This document shows, in pieces, positions 1 through 6,598 of a DNA stretch of 38,349 nt. Source of the stretch: Luteolibacter sp. (lineage in GTDB: Bacteria > Verrucomicrobiota > Verrucomicrobiia > Verrucomicrobiales > Akkermansiaceae); the NCBI GenBank assembly GCA_030696085.1, contig JAUYNL010000035.1, forward strand, positions 1-38,349. Reading direction: 5' to 3'. The position numbers and the translations under genes are program-made. The notes beneath the pieces were generated by a model that saw only the letters and a program-made list of their open reading frames with translations, was not told the DNA's origin and did no database searches. Within the stretch, counting starts at the first letter, position 1, and the number at the start of each line of letters is the position of its first letter.

Positions 1-150
1 TCCGCCGAAACCGTGTCCGGCGACCAAATCCTGATAGATGCGCTGCGCGCTCAATCCGAGTTCGAGCATCGGCGCAATGACCTCCCGCAACCCGCCGCAC
101 AAGCTGCGCGAGCCGCTGATCACCTGGGTGGTGCACTTTGGGTGATCGCC
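1..150 (-). mobile_element. IS21-type transposase (IstA-like) remnant, runs off left edge
   Basis: Read on the minus strand in the frame whose last visible codon is 1-3, about 50 codons are recognisable, including SGSRSLCGGLREVIAPMLEL followed by GLSAQRIYQDLVAGHGF. This matches the conserved stretch just after the N-terminal helix-turn-helix of IS21-family IstA transposases (SLCEP...GLSAQRI.QDLV.EHGF). The C-terminus would lie left of the window. Upstream of about position 150 I cannot recognise the HTH, so this copy is probably degenerate or truncated at its 5' end. No start codon is assigned. The identification rests on one motif block remembered from the family, not on a search. Confidence 0.5.
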
Positions 151-283
151 GACAGGTGCCTGGAGCAGGACACAACGATCTGTTTGAAATCGCAGACGAG
201 CACATCATCCACCAAGTGGCAGACTTCGCCAAACGCGTGAGCCGGTAGGATGAAGACACCGACAAAAAAACGACGGAATCGTA

Positions 284-305
284 TGTCTCAAAATTAGTGC
301 AGACA
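284..305. repeat. Short inverted repeat upstream of the Y1 transposase
   Basis: TGTCT at 284-288 pairs with AGACA at 301-305 across a 12-base spacer containing AAAATTAGTGC, about 55 bases before the transposase start. Y1 (HUH) transposases of the REP-associated group act on imperfect hairpins at their ends, and AATTAGTG.AGACACC-like sequences are often seen near such genes in my recollection. I found no matching copy downstream of 1465. The rest of 151-358 shows no gene that I can support. Confidence 0.25.
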
Positions 306-358
306 CCATTTATTGATATTTTCCTTGACCTTGGAAATGACGGCGAGCACACACAGGC

Positions 359-1465
359 ATGGCCAGACCACGATGGATCGTCCCATGGGCGGAGTCCGGG
401 GAGAAACCGGCGATCTACCACTGCATCTCACGCGCGGTGGACAAGCGATTTGCCTTCGAGGGCAAGGACAAGGAGCAATTCCGCACCTACATGCGGATGT
501 ATGAGAATTTCTCGGGCTGCCGGGTGCTCTCCTATTGCCTGATGTCCAATCACATCCACCTGCTACTGGAGGTCCCGCCAATGCCCCGAAGCGGGTTCTC
601 GGACGAGCAGCTAGTCGCCCGCATACGCGCGATTTACAACGACGCCCAAGTGGCGGAGGTAGCCAAAGAACTGATAGAAGCCCGCAAGGTGGTGGCTGAA
701 GGCCGCGTGCGCGATGGGGAGGCTTATGTACTCGAAATCCACGAGCGCTTCACCTATCGGATGCACGATTTGAGTGAATTCATGAAGGGGCTGATGCAGC
801 GCTTCACCCAATGGTATAACCGCAGCCATGAGCGCCGCGGCAACCTTTGGGAGGAAACTTTCAAGAGCGTGGTGGTTGAGGATGGTGTCGCATCACGGAC
901 GGTTGCCGCATATATCGACCTGAATCCGGTGCGCGCGGGCATTGTGGAAGATCCGGCGGATTACCGCTGGAGCAGCTACGGTGAGGCGACCGGGGGCGGG
1001 GGCATGGGCAAGGGCAAAAAAGCACGCGCCGGCCTGGTGCGCGCGATCATGGCTGACAAGGGCTGGGAAGCGCACGAGTGCCATTGGGCCGGGCGTGTAT
1101 CCCGGGAATACCGAATGCTCTTTCTCCAGCAAGCCGAGGAGCGTGCTGAGGAAACCATCAACCCACAGGGCGAATTGGAAACCAAAATGCTCAGAAAGGG
1201 CATGAACCCCGTGCAAGCGACGGCGCAATTGGAGCGACTGGAGAGCAGGCGCGATGTCGCACTGGCGCAGGTGCTGCGCTGGCGCGTGAGATACTTCACG
1301 GACGGCGCGGTGATCGGCAGCCGTGGCTTTGTGGATGATCTGTTCAGCCGCTGCCGAGAGCGCTTCGGTATCAAGCGCATGAGCGGAGCACGCAAGTTGA
1401 GAGGTACAGCCGCTGCGGCAAGCGGACTGCTCTGGAGCATGCGGGATCTGCGAAAGGAGATATAG
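359..1465 (+). CDS. Y1 (HUH) transposase, REP-associated tyrosine transposase type
   Basis: Product of 368 residues. The HUH metal-binding motif is visible as NHIHLLLEV with His65 and His67. The likely catalytic tyrosine is Tyr153 in FTQWYNRSH, just before GNLWEE. The block AAYIDLNPVRAG...DYRWSSYGEA is the diagnostic end of the Y1_Tnp domain in the REP-associated family. These single-strand transposases cut and join DNA through a 5'-phosphotyrosine and act at hairpins. The C-terminal third, after about residue 210, is longer than in minimal IS200 TnpA and probably binds DNA (inferred). The reading frame is intact. It converges on the primase-helicase gene, with only 51 bases between the stops. 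ATG 359 is the first start that keeps the conserved IYHCISRAVD block. Confidence 0.88.
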   Translation: MARPRWIVPWAESGEKPAIYHCISRAVDKRFAFEGKDKEQFRTYMRMYENFSGCRVLSYCLMSNHIHLLLEVPPMPRSGFSDEQLVARIRAIYNDAQVAEVAKELIEARKVVAEGRVRDGEAYVLEIHERFTYRMHDLSEFMKGLMQRFTQWYNRSHERRGNLWEETFKSVVVEDGVASRTVAAYIDLNPVRAGIVEDPADYRWSSYGEATGGGGMGKGKKARAGLVRAIMADKGWEAHECHWAGRVSREYRMLFLQQAEERAEETINPQGELETKMLRKGMNPVQATAQLERLESRRDVALAQVLRWRVRYFTDGAVIGSRGFVDDLFSRCRERFGIKRMSGARKLRGTAAAASGLLWSMRDLRKEI

Positions 1466-1516
1466 AATTTTCTAACACAATTTCCAAAGGTATGAATTGA
1501 TTGAGATAGTGCGATA

Positions 1517-4363
1517 TCAAACCGATGATCCAGACATCTTCGCGCGGCGCAAATGCGTGATCGCCCGCAGAACGGCATCGAGTGTGGAATCGAGGTGTTT
1601 TGATAGATCTTCGGCCAGGGAACGCATTACATAATAAGCGTTTTCCTGAAGCAGTGCATCCTTGCGGCGGTCACATCGATAGGCCGCTGGATCGGAGAGG
1701 TGCTGAGGACCGTCGATTTCTATGACGAGCTTGAGATCCGCACAGAAAAGATCGACCTCCATCTCGCTCCATTGATCAAATGGAATCGGCAGTTTCACAT
1801 TGAGGCGGAACAAGCCGGCTGTCTCCGGCAGGGACTCAAGGCGTTGGAAAAGGAAGGCTTCGGACGCGCTGCGGGCCCGCTGATCATCGGAAGCAGGGCT
1901 GGCGGCGGCGACAAACAGATTTGCGAGCGGCTTGTCCACACCATCGCGTATGAGACGGCGCACGCTGGCGGAGTAGTCCTTTTTCCAGACCGGATCGATA
2001 GGCAAGGGGACGTCATCAGGCCAACCGGGCAGGGCACTGGCCGGCAGCAAAATGGTATAACCCACAGCCTCGTAGCCGGCACAACGCTTGTCGAACATGC
2101 GCGCGAACATCGGCACATCGAGATCGGCATAGTCGTGGATGCGAACCTCGCGTTTGCCATCGTGCAGGCGGTGGAGACGTCCGGCGTATTGGGCGATGAT
2201 GCCACGCCATGAAACGGGCATGGTGAGAAACAATGTATCGAGCCGGGAATCATCAAAGCCCTCGCCGACAAACTTGCCGGTGGCGATCACGACACGCGCT
2301 TCGCTTTCCGGAACGGCGGCGAGTTTTTCCATGGCTTCGCGCAACGATTTGCGACCCATGCCGCCTTGTAGGATGATCAGGTGCGGCACATGTGGACTCA
2401 GCATGGATGACAATGAGCTGACGTGCTCGGTTCTTTCCGTTAGAACCAAGGGCGAGCGTCCGCCGAGCACGGCGGCCAAGACCTCGTCCCGGATCATGTT
2501 GTTGCGGCGCTCGCAGCGCATGATCTCGGCGCAAAGATTTTGATACTCGATGCGGCGGTCGGGATCCGGTTCCGCCAGCGAACGAAAGCCAGTTGGTCGG
2601 ACGATGACATGATGGGAAAAAGGCCGGGCTTCCGCTTGTTGCTTCGCATCGACACTGTGGCGAATGGGACCGCACTGCATGAAGATGATGGGATGATGAC
2701 CATCCTTGCGCGTGACGGTCGCGGACAGCCCCAGCACGTATCGTGCCTTGGCCCGGCGGGCGACCAATTCAAAACTATGAGCTGACAGATGATGACATTC
2801 ATCGACGACGAGATGGCCGTAATCCGCCACGCGGTCATCGACCACACCCTTGCGAACAAGACTCTGGATCAGAGCGACATCGAGGTTTCCGGTGAGTTTC
2901 TTATGTCCACCGCCGAGTTTTCCGACTGACATTGCCGGCAGATCAAGAAATGAGGAAAGCCGCTCCACCCACTGCTCCATCAGTTGTTGACGATGCACCA
3001 ATATGAGCGTGTTGACGCCACGGGCGGCGATGAGATGGGCGGCAAGAACGGTTTTGCCGAAGGCAGTGGTGGCGGCGAGCACGCCTGTCTCATGTGCGAA
3101 CATGGCGGCGGCGGCGATTTGCTGTTCCGGGCGGAGCGTGCCGGTGAAACACACATCGAGCGGATGGCCAGCCACACGCTCATCGCGGATGCGGGCCTTG
3201 ATTCGGAGGCTTCCGAGAAGTTGCAGCAACTCATCGAGCAACCCGCGCGGCAAGCCGATGTGCGCGGACAGATCCTCCGCGCAGCCGATGATACGAGGTT
3301 TACCATAGGTCGATAAGCGCATCGCCTGGGCACGGTAGAACTCGGGATTCTGGAATGCGGCGAGGCGGAGCAGGCGGTTGCGCAATGCGGCCGGCAGGAG
3401 ATCCTTGGCGAGATAGATCTGATCACCGAGAATCACTTCGATCTCTTTTGGCAAAGGCCCGGTGATCGGTTCATCGCGATACCGCCGCGATGGCGGCGAG
3501 TTCCATGGTTCGGCATCATCTTGCGCCGCAAGAGTGAAGCGCACGCCCGTCACGCGGCCGCTGGTTTCGGCATCCCGAGCCATGGCCTCCACCTGCGTGC
3601 GCGACAAGCGATGGATGGCTGATAGGAACGCCCATTGATCCGGCCATGGGACCAATGCCTCGTCCAAAAACAGGCTGTGGCCGCTGTCACGAGGAACCTT
3701 CTGCAGGGGTAGAGCGATGAGATTGCCGAAGCCGCCTTTTGGCAGGGTGTCCTGGTTGGGAATGAGCCTGTCATAGGATGCGAGACCGAGTTCCGGTCGA
3801 CGCTCCATCGTTTCCGTTAGAACGAACGATCCCAACCTGCGTGCGAGCGTTGCGGGAACCGCCTCCGTGAAGAACAACCAGATATGGCCTCCATTCCCGG
3901 AGCGTGATCTTTCCAGCGCGGCGGGAATTTGCAGAAGACGGCACGTTTCCATCACCGCCAACACATCATCCCTCCATGATTCCTTGTCGAAATCCATAGC
4001 GAGGAAATAACAGGTCTCGTCGGCGAGCATCGGATAGACACCGGCAACGAAGTCCTGTCCGGTCTTGTTCTTACCTGATAGATGCCATTGGATGACTTCA
4101 TCGGTCACCGGCAGAAAAGCGCGGTGCGGGCAATCGCCGCATTTGATCCGGGATTTCTCGCAAACGCCACGCACCCATTCGTTGCCACAGGCCGGAGCAT
4201 AACCTGCGCGGCCGCTCCTGAGATTTTCAAAACGCCTCGGATACAAATCCCCGCGCCCGCGAAACAAGCGGCGGAAAAGCGCGATTTTCGCTGCCACCGG
4301 GCTGCGGGCATGAACCTTGGCACTGCCAAAGTCCGCGTAGTCGCTGTAGCCGTGTCCGGGCAT
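1517..4363 (-). CDS. AEP primase - SF2 helicase - DUF559/Vsr-like nuclease fusion protein
   Basis: Residues are numbered from the TTG at 4513; I prefer ATG at 4363 (residue 51), with ATG 4483 as the alternative. An archaeo-eukaryotic primase domain starts at KIALFRRLFRGR (76-87), with a Cys cluster (C109, C118, C125, C128), catalytic MDFD (174-176) and SGNGGHIW (205-212). It resembles the primase module of TOTE-type conflict systems. An SF2 helicase follows: Walker A TTAFGKT (482-488), DECHH (571-575), LGLSAT (594-599), then a second RecA-like lobe. The C-terminus, VIEIDGPQHL (930-939) with an upstream D921 and the later RRKDALLQENAYYVMRS, fits a Vsr/DUF559 PD-(D/E)XK nuclease. All catalytic residues I can place are present and the frame is open throughout. 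Families with this layout are thought to act in genome defence or element conflict; the role here is inferred. It lies divergently beside pdhA. Confidence 0.82.
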   Translation of the reverse strand: MPGHGYSDYADFGSAKVHARSPVAAKIALFRRLFRGRGDLYPRRFENLRSGRAGYAPACGNEWVRGVCEKSRIKCGDCPHRAFLPVTDEVIQWHLSGKNKTGQDFVAGVYPMLADETCYFLAMDFDKESWRDDVLAVMETCRLLQIPAALERSRSGNGGHIWLFFTEAVPATLARRLGSFVLTETMERRPELGLASYDRLIPNQDTLPKGGFGNLIALPLQKVPRDSGHSLFLDEALVPWPDQWAFLSAIHRLSRTQVEAMARDAETSGRVTGVRFTLAAQDDAEPWNSPPSRRYRDEPITGPLPKEIEVILGDQIYLAKDLLPAALRNRLLRLAAFQNPEFYRAQAMRLSTYGKPRIIGCAEDLSAHIGLPRGLLDELLQLLGSLRIKARIRDERVAGHPLDVCFTGTLRPEQQIAAAAMFAHETGVLAATTAFGKTVLAAHLIAARGVNTLILVHRQQLMEQWVERLSSFLDLPAMSVGKLGGGHKKLTGNLDVALIQSLVRKGVVDDRVADYGHLVVDECHHLSAHSFELVARRAKARYVLGLSATVTRKDGHHPIIFMQCGPIRHSVDAKQQAEARPFSHHVIVRPTGFRSLAEPDPDRRIEYQNLCAEIMRCERRNNMIRDEVLAAVLGGRSPLVLTERTEHVSSLSSMLSPHVPHLIILQGGMGRKSLREAMEKLAAVPESEARVVIATGKFVGEGFDDSRLDTLFLTMPVSWRGIIAQYAGRLHRLHDGKREVRIHDYADLDVPMFARMFDKRCAGYEAVGYTILLPASALPGWPDDVPLPIDPVWKKDYSASVRRLIRDGVDKPLANLFVAAASPASDDQRARSASEAFLFQRLESLPETAGLFRLNVKLPIPFDQWSEMEVDLFCADLKLVIEIDGPQHLSDPAAYRCDRRKDALLQENAYYVMRSLAEDLSKHLDSTLDAVLRAITHLRRAKMSGSSV

Positions 4364-4522
4364 GCCCCAGCGTGGCCCATCCGTCCCCTGTTGTCGATCC
4401 ACCCGTGCCCACCGGCATCGAGAATCAAAATCCTTGCCTCCCGGCCTCTGCTCCGCAACGGTTCCGCCTCGCCGATTTGCCATCGCAGCATCCACAACCC
4501 GCGGAATTTTCAACGCCCCGCC

Positions 4523-5599
4523 ATGACCACCGCCAACCTCTCACCCCTCGATTTCGCCAACTCGCCGATCAATCAAACGCTCACGCCCGAGCGGAAAATC
4601 GAGCTGTTCACCCAAATGGTCCGCATCCGGCGCTTCGAGCAGGCCGGCTTGAAATACTACCAGGGCGGAAAAATCGGCGGATTCCTCCATCTTTACATCG
4701 GCCAGGAAGCCGTGGCCGTCGGCACCATTTCGCTGGGAGGCCCTGATGATCACTTCATCACCGCTTACCGCGACCATGGCCATGCGCTGGCCGTCGGCAT
4801 GGGCATGAACGAATGCATGGCGGAAATGTTCGGCAAGCAAACCGGCTGCTCGAAGGGCAAGGGCGGATCGATGCACTTTTTCGCGCCCGATAAGAATTTC
4901 TGGGGCGGCCACGGCATTGTCGCCGGCCAAACCCCGCTCGGTCTCGGGCTGGCATACGGGCTCAAATATCTCGGACGGGAAGGATGCTGCCTCTGCTATC
5001 TCGGCGATGGCGCGGTGAACCAGGGCGCTTTCCACGAATCGCTCAACCTCGCCGCGCTTTTCGACATCCCGGTGGTGTTCGTGATTGAAAACAACGGCTA
5101 CTCGATGGGCACCTCGCAGGAGCGCTCATCCGCATACGGCGGCTGCCTCGCCCAACGCGGCGAAGCCTACGGCATGGAGTGGGACGTCATCGATGGCTCG
5201 GACATCTACGAAGTGCGCGCCAAGACCCACATCGCCATGGAGCGCGCCCGCAAGGAATTCAAACCCACCTTGCTGGAAATCGACACCTACCGCTACTACG
5301 GGCACAGTATTGCCGATGCGAATCACAAGAAATACCGCACACCGGAGGAAATCGAGAACTACAAGCAGAACCATGATCCGATCAACGTGTTCCGCCGCAA
5401 GTTGATCGCCGAGGGACTGCTCACCGAAGACAGCGCCACCACCATCAACAAGACCGCGCAGGATGAAGCCGCCGCCGCTGTGAAATTCGCCGATGAATCG
5501 CCCTCTCCCACCATCTCCGATATCAGCACCGACGTCTATTGGGAGACCGACAACCAATCGCCGGCATCCAAGATCGGGCGCCACTTTTTCGACAGCTGA
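4523..5599 (+). CDS. pdhA: Pyruvate dehydrogenase E1 component, alpha subunit
   Basis: Product of 358 residues, the usual size for the alpha subunit of a heterotetrameric E1. The thiamine diphosphate/Mg motif GDGAVNQGAFHESLN begins at Gly161 and ends with the NNGY element (VIENNGYSMGTS). The phosphorylation-loop equivalent YRYYGHSIAD is present. With E1 beta it decarboxylates pyruvate and acetylates the lipoyl group of E2. The frame is open upstream to 4082, but homology begins near LTPERKIELFTQMVRIRRFE, so ATG 4523 is chosen. E1 beta follows after 12 bases, in one operon. The gene is divergent from the primase-helicase gene. Confidence 0.96.
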   Translation: MTTANLSPLDFANSPINQTLTPERKIELFTQMVRIRRFEQAGLKYYQGGKIGGFLHLYIGQEAVAVGTISLGGPDDHFITAYRDHGHALAVGMGMNECMAEMFGKQTGCSKGKGGSMHFFAPDKNFWGGHGIVAGQTPLGLGLAYGLKYLGREGCCLCYLGDGAVNQGAFHESLNLAALFDIPVVFVIENNGYSMGTSQERSSAYGGCLAQRGEAYGMEWDVIDGSDIYEVRAKTHIAMERARKEFKPTLLEIDTYRYYGHSIADANHKKYRTPEEIENYKQNHDPINVFRRKLIAEGLLTEDSATTINKTAQDEAAAAVKFADESPSPTISDISTDVYWETDNQSPASKIGRHFFDS

Positions 5600-5611
5600 A
5601 CCACTCCTGCC

Positions 5612-6598
5612 ATGTCACGCACACTCACCTACCGTGAAGCTCTCCGCGAAGGCCTCGATGAGGAACTCGCCCGCGATCCCAACGTCGTCATCATGGGCGA
5701 GGAAGTCGCCCAATACAACGGCGCCTACAAGGTCACCGAAGGCCTCTGGAAAAAATGGGGCGACAAGCGCATTGTCGATACTCCGATCTCCGAGGCCGGC
5801 TTCATCGGCATGGGCATCGGCGCCTCCATGCTCGGCGTGCGCCCGGTCATGGAACTGATGTTCTGGTCCTTCCACTCCGTCGCCTTCGACCAGCTCGTTT
5901 CCAACGCCGCCTGCGTGCGCTACATGTCCGGCGGGCTTTGCAATTGTCCCATCGTCGTTCGCGGCCCGGCCAATGGCGGCACCGGCGTCGGTGCCACCCA
6001 CTCGCACATCCCGGAAGGCCTCTTCGCCGCGTTTCCAGGCCTCAAAGTCTGCGCTCCCGCCACCCCGGCGGACGCCAAAGGTCTGATCAAAGCCGCCATT
6101 CGCGACAACGATCCGGTCTATTTCATGGAAAACACCCTGCTTTATGGCAATTCCGGCGAAGTCCCCGACCCCGCCGACGGTGATTTCGTCATTCCTCTGG
6201 GAGTCGCCGACCTCAAGCGTGAAGGCACCGACATCTCGCTCATCGCCCACGGGCGCTCCGTCATTCATTGCCTTGCCGCTGCGGAGACCCTCCAAGCCGA
6301 GCATGGTATCAACGCCGAAGTGCTCGACCTGCGTTCGATCCGTCCGCTCGATGTGGATGCCATCCTCAAGACGGTTCAAAAAACCAACCGCGTGCTCCTG
6401 GTGGACGAATCGAAACCTTTCGGTGGCGTTTCCGCCATGGTTTCCACCATCATCATGGAAAACGCCTTCGATTACTTGGACGCCCCGGTCCAGCGCGTCT
6501 GTTCCATCGATGCCCCGGCCATCTACTCCCCGCACATCGAAAACGAGCAGCTTCCCAACCCGCGCCGGATCATCGAGAAGGTGCTGAAGATGGGTTGA
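5612..6598 (+). CDS. pdhB: Pyruvate dehydrogenase E1 component, beta subunit
   Basis: Product of 328 residues, typical of PDH/branched-chain E1 beta. It opens with RTLTYREALREGLDEELARDPNVVIMGEEVAQYNGAYKVTEGL in short conserved steps, followed by SEAGFIGMGIGASMLGVRPVMELM and FDQLVSNAA. The C-terminal transketolase domain is visible as DLRSIRPLDVDAI and DESKPFGG. It pairs with the adjacent alpha subunit to form the E1 heterotetramer in the cytoplasm. The start ATG 5612 lies 12 bases after the pdhA stop. Its stop is only 4 bases from the stop of the convergent secreted-protein gene, leaving no room for a separate terminator. E2 is found 3 kb downstream, not adjacent. Confidence 0.96.
   Translation: MSRTLTYREALREGLDEELARDPNVVIMGEEVAQYNGAYKVTEGLWKKWGDKRIVDTPISEAGFIGMGIGASMLGVRPVMELMFWSFHSVAFDQLVSNAACVRYMSGGLCNCPIVVRGPANGGTGVGATHSHIPEGLFAAFPGLKVCAPATPADAKGLIKAAIRDNDPVYFMENTLLYGNSGEVPDPADGDFVIPLGVADLKREGTDISLIAHGRSVIHCLAAAETLQAEHGINAEVLDLRSIRPLDVDAILKTVQKTNRVLLVDESKPFGGVSAMVSTIIMENAFDYLDAPVQRVCSIDAPAIYSPHIENEQLPNPRRIIEKVLKMG

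Follow-up and report, generated by a model that had tools for sequence, protein, structure and literature searches.

The window analysed here is the whole of a 38,349-base contig from Luteolibacter sp. (GenBank JAUYNL010000035.1; contig C23 of genome G000 in our set). Close to its beginning lies a gene, present as a single copy in this genome, whose product is predicted to carry an archaeo-eukaryotic primase (AEP) domain, a superfamily 2 (SF2) helicase and a nuclease on one chain. Residues are numbered here from the ATG. A longer frame (1517..4513, minus strand, 998 amino acids) would start at an upstream TTG at position 4513; the original prediction, made from the letters of the window, used the numbering of that frame. 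The bases preceding the two candidate starts do not discriminate between them; the similarity of homologues mostly starts within the first 26 residues of the 948-residue protein. The gene and its predicted domains are as follows.

1517..4363, minus strand: primase-helicase-nuclease fusion gene, 948 amino acids from the ATG
3584..4288, minus strand: AEP (primase-polymerase) domain, residues 26-260, Pfam PF22548 AEP-TOTE
4130..4189, minus strand: candidate zinc-binding cysteines C59, C68, C75 and C78 of the AEP domain
3986..3994, minus strand: AEP motif DxD (D124 and D126, in MDFD at residues 123-126), invariant in 83 different sequences
3884..3901, minus strand: AEP motif SGNGGH, residues 155-160; S155, G156 and H160 invariant in 89 rows
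2051..3166, minus strand: SF2 helicase, XPB/Rad25-like, approximately residues 400-771, from Pfam, sequence match and Foldseek
3050..3067, minus strand: helicase Walker A, TAFGKT, residues 433-438, invariant in 83 sequences
2789..2803, minus strand: helicase Walker B, DECHH, residues 521-525, invariant in 83 sequences
2168..2191, minus strand: helicase motif QYAGRLHR, residues 725-732; Q725, G728, R729 and R732 invariant in 83 sequences
1526..1888, minus strand: predicted Vsr/DUF559-type PD-(D/E)XK nuclease, residues 826-946, from Pfam, alignment and domain model
1712..1759, minus strand: nuclease acidic residues E869, D871, E882 and D884

Homologues were taken from a scan of GTDB genomes in which at least 578 relatives are encoded. 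The best 80 loci were kept, 74 with an unbroken full-length frame and six interrupted by splits or breaks in draft contigs. The 89 rows of the full-length alignment represent 83 different proteins over residues 24-930 (six genes were entered twice), while the structure alignment took 54 rows and the nuclease alignment 35. The N-terminal domain matched Pfam AEP-TOTE with an E-value of 8.4e-93 (310.6 bits against a cut-off of 27), and its sequence also matches the solved CAPP-type domains 7nqf and 7nqd (E 5.5e-6). As the Pfam score lies above the cut-off and the DxD and sxH motifs are intact, the protein can be assigned by sequence to the AEP-TOTE / CAPP_A-like primase-polymerase family. Three of the four cysteines in this domain (C68, C75 and C78) are invariant and C59 is kept in 82 of the 83 different homologues; together they may bind zinc.

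The central part of the protein was matched by Pfam ResIII at residues 409-551 (E 1.9e-19), and its sequence matches an archaeal XPB (XPBII, 6p4f, E 3.9e-16). Foldseek likewise recognised an XPB-like fold, and several of the top structures show archaeal XPB bound to the endonuclease Bax1. Besides the two Walker motifs, the helicase has a SAT motif at residues 547-549 (T549 kept in 82 of 83) and QYAGRLHR, which we take to be helicase motif VI. The score against the NCBIfam equivalog repair_heli_XPB was 57.5 bits, below the cut-off of 610, thus the helicase is better described as a relative of XPB than as an XPB.

The C-terminal domain was matched by Pfam DUF559 at residues 870-935 (E 1.3e-8, 35.1 bits against a cut-off of 20.6) and contains the motif VIEIDG at residues 880-885. 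Three of its acidic residues, E869, E882 and D884, are invariant, and D871 is kept in 82 of the 83 different homologues. The whole-chain structure model reached a mean predicted local distance difference test score (pLDDT) of 77.4 and a predicted template modelling score of 0.52; the nuclease domain modelled alone reached a pLDDT of 90.8. The latter model aligned with 3hrl at Z 13.0 (root-mean-square deviation 1.9, 94 residues aligned), with I-Bth0305I at Z 12.1, with Vsr (1cw0) at Z 10.7 and with Bax1 (6p4w) at Z 8.6. The Foldseek E-values for the same model were weak, the best being 2.6e-3, with mitochondrial ribosome chains ranking among the matches. By sequence and model, the domain is a predicted PD-(D/E)XK nuclease of the Vsr/DUF559 group.

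The original prediction had placed a primase, an SF2 helicase and a Vsr/DUF559-like PD-(D/E)XK nuclease on one chain, with the catalytic motifs intact. All of this was borne out: the three Pfam families score above their cut-offs, no catalytic residue of the three domains is missing from more than one of the 83 different full-length homologues, and the DUF559 match is accompanied by Z scores of 10.7-13.0 to Vsr-like structures. The mean column identity across the 54 rows is 70%. The ratio of nonsynonymous to synonymous substitution rates (dN/dS) was 0.04-0.12 in all three domains when the gene was compared with six relatives, at synonymous sites near saturation; in one further relative, entered twice, saturation was reached in two of the domains. 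The close pair L025-L027 gave ratios of approximately 0.08-0.22. All three domains are under purifying selection, and the conservation across phyla together with the low dN/dS excludes chance as an explanation of the three-domain fusion.

The same fusion is widely encountered. In their best segments, the top 80 of the at least 578 relatives share 63-84% identity with the window protein. They belong to Verrucomicrobia, Planctomycetes, Acidobacteria, Accumulibacter, Omnitrophota, Riflebacteria and other groups, so that the fusion is present in several phyla. Among 58 related genomes, 14 have a full-length fusion and three have pieces of it (G014, G019 and G048); four carry a 42-43% identical form ending before the nuclease. 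Copies elsewhere in the genus are 65-84% identical. When 387 genomes were sampled evenly across the phylum, a relative with or without the nuclease was encoded in 51 of them (own genome included), at an E-value of 1e-50 or better. Besides the match in the window, 47 of the 55 matches in this sample start near the N-terminus; these comprise 23 that extend into the nuclease, 22 that end ahead of it and two short pieces. A sample of 398 genomes from the phylum of Accumulibacter gave 16 with a match, and only the Accumulibacter genome at its centre reaches the nuclease.

The place of the gene in the chromosome is not constant. In the window it lies between a host gene and a transposase gene:

4541..5599, plus strand: pdhA (pyruvate dehydrogenase E1 alpha), the host gene adjoining the fusion gene, Pfam E1_dh
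4507..4547: approximate junction, at which similarity to relatives without the fusion gene at pdhA starts
359..1465, plus strand: RAYT-like Y1 transposase, convergent with the fusion gene and not judged part of the system

Among the 14 relatives that carry a complete copy, the fusion gene and pdhA share a contig in G022 alone. The gene was beside pdhA in none of nine other relatives examined, eight of which share a different block of approximately 2-3 kb upstream of pdhA, the ninth (G014) carrying something else. Both flanks of the fusion copy are common to G018 and G028, and one flank is common to G001 and G013. Over short spans the gene is thus passed on in its place, whereas over longer spans it is met at other sites. 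Its third-codon GC content (0.66, against 0.77-0.78 in two pdh genes) hints at acquisition. Terminal repeats of a cassette were looked for in positions 1-6000 of the window and rejected, as the repeats there are short and imperfect and none of them brackets the gene. By these genome comparisons the fusion gene can be described as accessory, patchily spread across distant bacteria and located in changing places. A housekeeping helicase in a fixed place, which would have refuted the original prediction, is ruled out by its presence in 51 of the 387 phylum genomes and by its shifting positions.

It had also been suggested that the gene sits among transposase genes at an accessory edge. The accessory character stands, but there is one transposase gene and not several. 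The genome has 13 Y1_Tnp matches (12 over the cut-off) and RAYT relatives occur in 50 of the 59 genomes searched, own included, hence the RAYT of the window is an ordinary one. In G035 a convergent RAYT (L153:10554-11651) likewise lies 3' of the fusion gene, at a distance of 40-50 bases as in the window. The two fusion genes share only 65% identity. RAYTs have multiplied strongly in the genus, G035 alone having at least 34 RAYT matches; a role of the RAYT as mobiliser or partner was therefore rejected, and the arrangement judged a coincidence.

The other neighbours revealed no conserved partner. Clusters of neighbouring genes recur in six of the 80 loci at most; the flanks of many loci are short, and the members of the largest cluster are spread over several positions. 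A conserved upstream partner was rejected as well, as no family occurs more than twice among 37 abutting open reading frames (ORFs; from 30 long-form and seven short or PLD-like loci). Those seven (L161, L162, L163, L164, L169, L172 and L173), out of 15 short or PLD-like loci with listed neighbours, are the ones whose abutting upstream gene was scanned; that gene resembles a toxin or a regulator, but its family varies, the families found there being HipA, a DUF4143 ATPase, Fic twice, DUF2293, SLFN_AlbA and RhuM. The statement that the gene needs no partner on either side is consistent with these results.

In order to relate the nuclease-bearing forms to the others, a quick maximum-likelihood tree was built from 91 core sequences (residues 24-771), with support from the Shimodaira-Hasegawa-like approximate likelihood ratio test (SH-aLRT) only and a midpoint root for drawing; 22 long forms were added by random draw from those that had not been chosen before, and L194 and L160 form long branches. 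All 42 nuclease-bearing rows fall on one side of a branch with an SH-aLRT support of 98, with the nuclease-free rows outside. Thus, most simply, the Vsr/DUF559 domain would have been gained once in the primase-helicase family, if the root lies outside this clade. Elsewhere in the tree (support 99), a PLD-like C-terminal tail replaces the Vsr/DUF559 nuclease in L160, L172 and L173. Pfam PLDc_2 scored above its cut-off in L173 and below it in L160, and was not reported in L172, whose tail was read by eye. The two nuclease-type tails have different folds, which suggests that tails on the primase-helicase core are modular. What appears to be new is this arrangement of the family, with the nuclease-bearing forms as one clade amid nuclease-free forms and a second lineage with a PLD-like tail.

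Two acidobacterial loci have, near the full gene, an extra ORF that covers the nuclease alone (query residues approximately 770-941; L042:6768-7316 and L060:14844-15377). These are perhaps decayed second copies.

Nuclease-free forms were also found on plasmids. In L104 and L191 the primase-helicase gene lies beside TniB and annotated TniQ genes, and in L186 beside TniQ, neighbours such as those in Tn7-like transposition modules; in L104 the primase-helicase and TniQ genes have the same orientation and share a few bases. In three alphaproteobacterial plasmids (L105, L187 and L189) a run of three convergent tyrosine recombinase genes comes after the short form. In most of the plasmid records listed, the gene bears no other name than 'DEAD/DEAH box helicase'.

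Parts of the architecture have been described before; the papers cited by PMC number are drawn on in part. Zabrady et al. (2021, PMC8211822) list the primase-helicase core as the third architecture of CAPP_A, the helicase type of CRISPR-associated Prim-Pols (CAPPs); outside CRISPR loci they state it to be the commonest one, typically found in mobile and transposable elements. In the window protein, too, an AEP domain that matches CAPP-type structures is followed by a helicase domain. The one section of that paper used here does not speak of a Vsr/DUF559 nuclease at the C-terminus. For the window locus a CRISPR association was rejected, as no Cas1 match was found on its contig, which extends only 1.5 kb on one side of the gene. 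Cas1 matches of this genome are on contigs C71 and C11, unlinked to the fusion gene. YprA helicases of ARMADA systems also end in a predicted Vsr-type nuclease; however, they belong to a different helicase family and to a multi-gene system, and the part of PMC12458937 used here does not mention a primase on the chain. The four-in-one replicase GP55 of phage 1706 carries helicase and AEP on a single chain, but adds a family B DNA polymerase in place of a nuclease and is replicative (PMC12205980). We found no description of an AEP-helicase-DUF559 fusion in the open literature searched, and one may be in print (Aravind 2022; Iyer 2005). The novelty first attributed to the fusion was overstated, since it occurs at more than 60% identity in several phyla and its core was described in 2021 (PMC8211822); the protein belongs to a known, if little studied, enzyme family.

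What, then, could the protein do? We consider it an even call that it is a stand-alone, single-gene enzyme acting against invading DNA. The XPB-like motor would load on and open the DNA of the invader at ends, forks or replication intermediates, the AEP domain would prime or extend DNA on the exposed strand, and the Vsr-like nuclease, tethered on the same chain, would cut the DNA during this processing. We infer that the three activities act on the same molecule, as well as the order of the steps, the sparing of the cell's own DNA and a phage or plasmid target. In our judgement this reading is favoured because the three domains are on one chain, there is no recurrent partner or neighbour cluster, and the gene is patchy, relocates and occurs as the same fusion in several phyla. 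The hint from third-codon GC, the constraint on all domains, the second nuclease-type tail and the toxin- and defence-type genes nearby point in the same direction.

These nearby genes were assessed among ORFs within three ORFs of the gene. The ORFs were called mechanically and some are spurious. From 141 eligible ORFs of 29 loci, eight were left out by hand (three fusion-gene pieces and five ORFs of L080, a near copy of L063), which left 133 from 28 loci; 133 of 187 ORFs at least five ORFs away, from 29 loci including L080, served as the far control. Pfam matched PIN, RES, AbiEii and DUF4143, two to four times each, and PADLOC matched JetD, ZorD, DrmMII, Fic, AbiE and methyltransferase models. 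The number of PADLOC models matched was 92 for the near and five for the far ORFs, which is a mild hint only, because redundant models inflate the counts.

Several observations speak against an enzyme directed at invaders. The PADLOC contrast counts models and not proteins (one methyltransferase alone matches 14 models), four of 20 hand-picked near ORFs matched PADLOC in single scans, and the Pfam scan of near ORFs had no far control. In the window itself the gene is flanked by a host pdh gene and an ordinary RAYT, and does not lie in a defence island. Of the 45 near-complete relatives in the phylum sample, the 22 that stop before the nuclease indicate that cutting is not needed for the job of the core, and the second tail may not cut, as the HxK(x4)D motif is kept in the PLD-like tail of L173 and missing from the other two. 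Lastly, the high conservation is, in our judgement from the alignment, more typical of an enzyme working on ordinary DNA than of a fast-evolving sensor.

A serious rival, one that we nevertheless regard as somewhat improbable, is an accessory enzyme of host DNA repair or fork restart, in which the helicase would open damaged DNA, the nuclease incise it and the AEP domain re-prime or fill in. Its weight comes from the likeness to XPB-Bax1 and from the strict sequence conservation. The helicase is closest to XPB in sequence and fold, XPB-Bax1 complexes are among its best structures, and Bax1 is among the structural matches of the nuclease. Archaeal XPB-Bax1 thus shares with our protein an XPB-type motor paired with a nuclease of a similar fold. 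It consists of two proteins and is not known to include a primase, whereas here everything, AEP domain included, is on one chain. Another AEP, the Ppol of Thermus thermophilus, is reported to keep AddAB in balance and to guard genome stability (PMC9751324). A defence role had been proposed for it from the raised transformation of ppol mutants (PMC7693054); all ppol mutants were later shown to carry addAB mutations (PMC9751324). However, 336 of the 387 phylum genomes have no match at E 1e-50, the gene shifts its place, and some of the genes nearby are of toxin or defence type.

It is unlikely that the protein serves the replication or transposition of mobile elements, either left behind in the chromosome or serving it. 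The short forms on alphaproteobacterial plasmids, beside TniB/TniQ or three tyrosine recombinases, fit such a role, and many AEP-helicases have been proposed as replication proteins of mobile elements (PMC5862659). Near the nuclease-bearing form, no Pfam family that recurs among the 133 near ORFs is an integrase, transposase or replication protein (single occurrences are mostly not listed), and one Y1 transposase was found among the 37 abutting ORFs. None of the 30 plasmid records listed, from 215 with matches, reaches the nuclease. Among 50,697 phage records, 615 had a match and none covered 80% of the query at one place; the 15 phage matches listed concern the helicase part only. The nuclease-bearing form was seen in one 23 kb IMG/VR contig (L166), which is putatively viral. 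A parallel is the Ppol-Hel of the Thermus element ICETh2, also a mobile-element primase-polymerase encoded with a helicase; there the two are separate genes, no nuclease domain is reported in the part of the paper used, and Ppol is not needed for replication of its element (PMC7693054).

The effector of a true TOTE system (TPR, OB, TBP, Effector; PMC12458937, after Aravind, Iyer and Burroughs 2022), a link made in the original prediction, is very improbable: it is suggested by the Pfam name of the AEP domain, the only feature shared, while the TBP that the name requires (as explained in the part of PMC12458937 used here) had no match (PF00352) in this 95.99% complete genome, with four of 14 control genomes positive, and is not one of the families that recur among the 133 near ORFs. 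Partners with TPR or OB domains were not found either, the immediate neighbours being the RAYT and pdhA, in a comparison that included no dedicated search for them. A TOTE system was thus rejected for the window locus, unless unlinked and unrecognised partners exist.

For stand-alone members of the family, the Pfam label 'TOTE' may mislead. To our knowledge, the roles of primase-polymerases outside CRISPR loci are mostly unknown. Such proteins are common (PMC8211822). We put forward, as a doubtful and rather speculative idea, that widespread single-gene enzymes which prime, unwind and cut may form a defence class of their own, a one-gene cassette that moves across phyla and whose core acquired a Vsr/DUF559 nuclease in one lineage and a PLD-like tail in another. 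If so, DNA synthesis by the AEP domain on the invader would help to recognise or block it, and would not serve replication or the making of CRISPR spacers. With a built-in nuclease, strictly conserved active sites and no recurrent partner, the question may be addressed with one gene and three active-site mutants.

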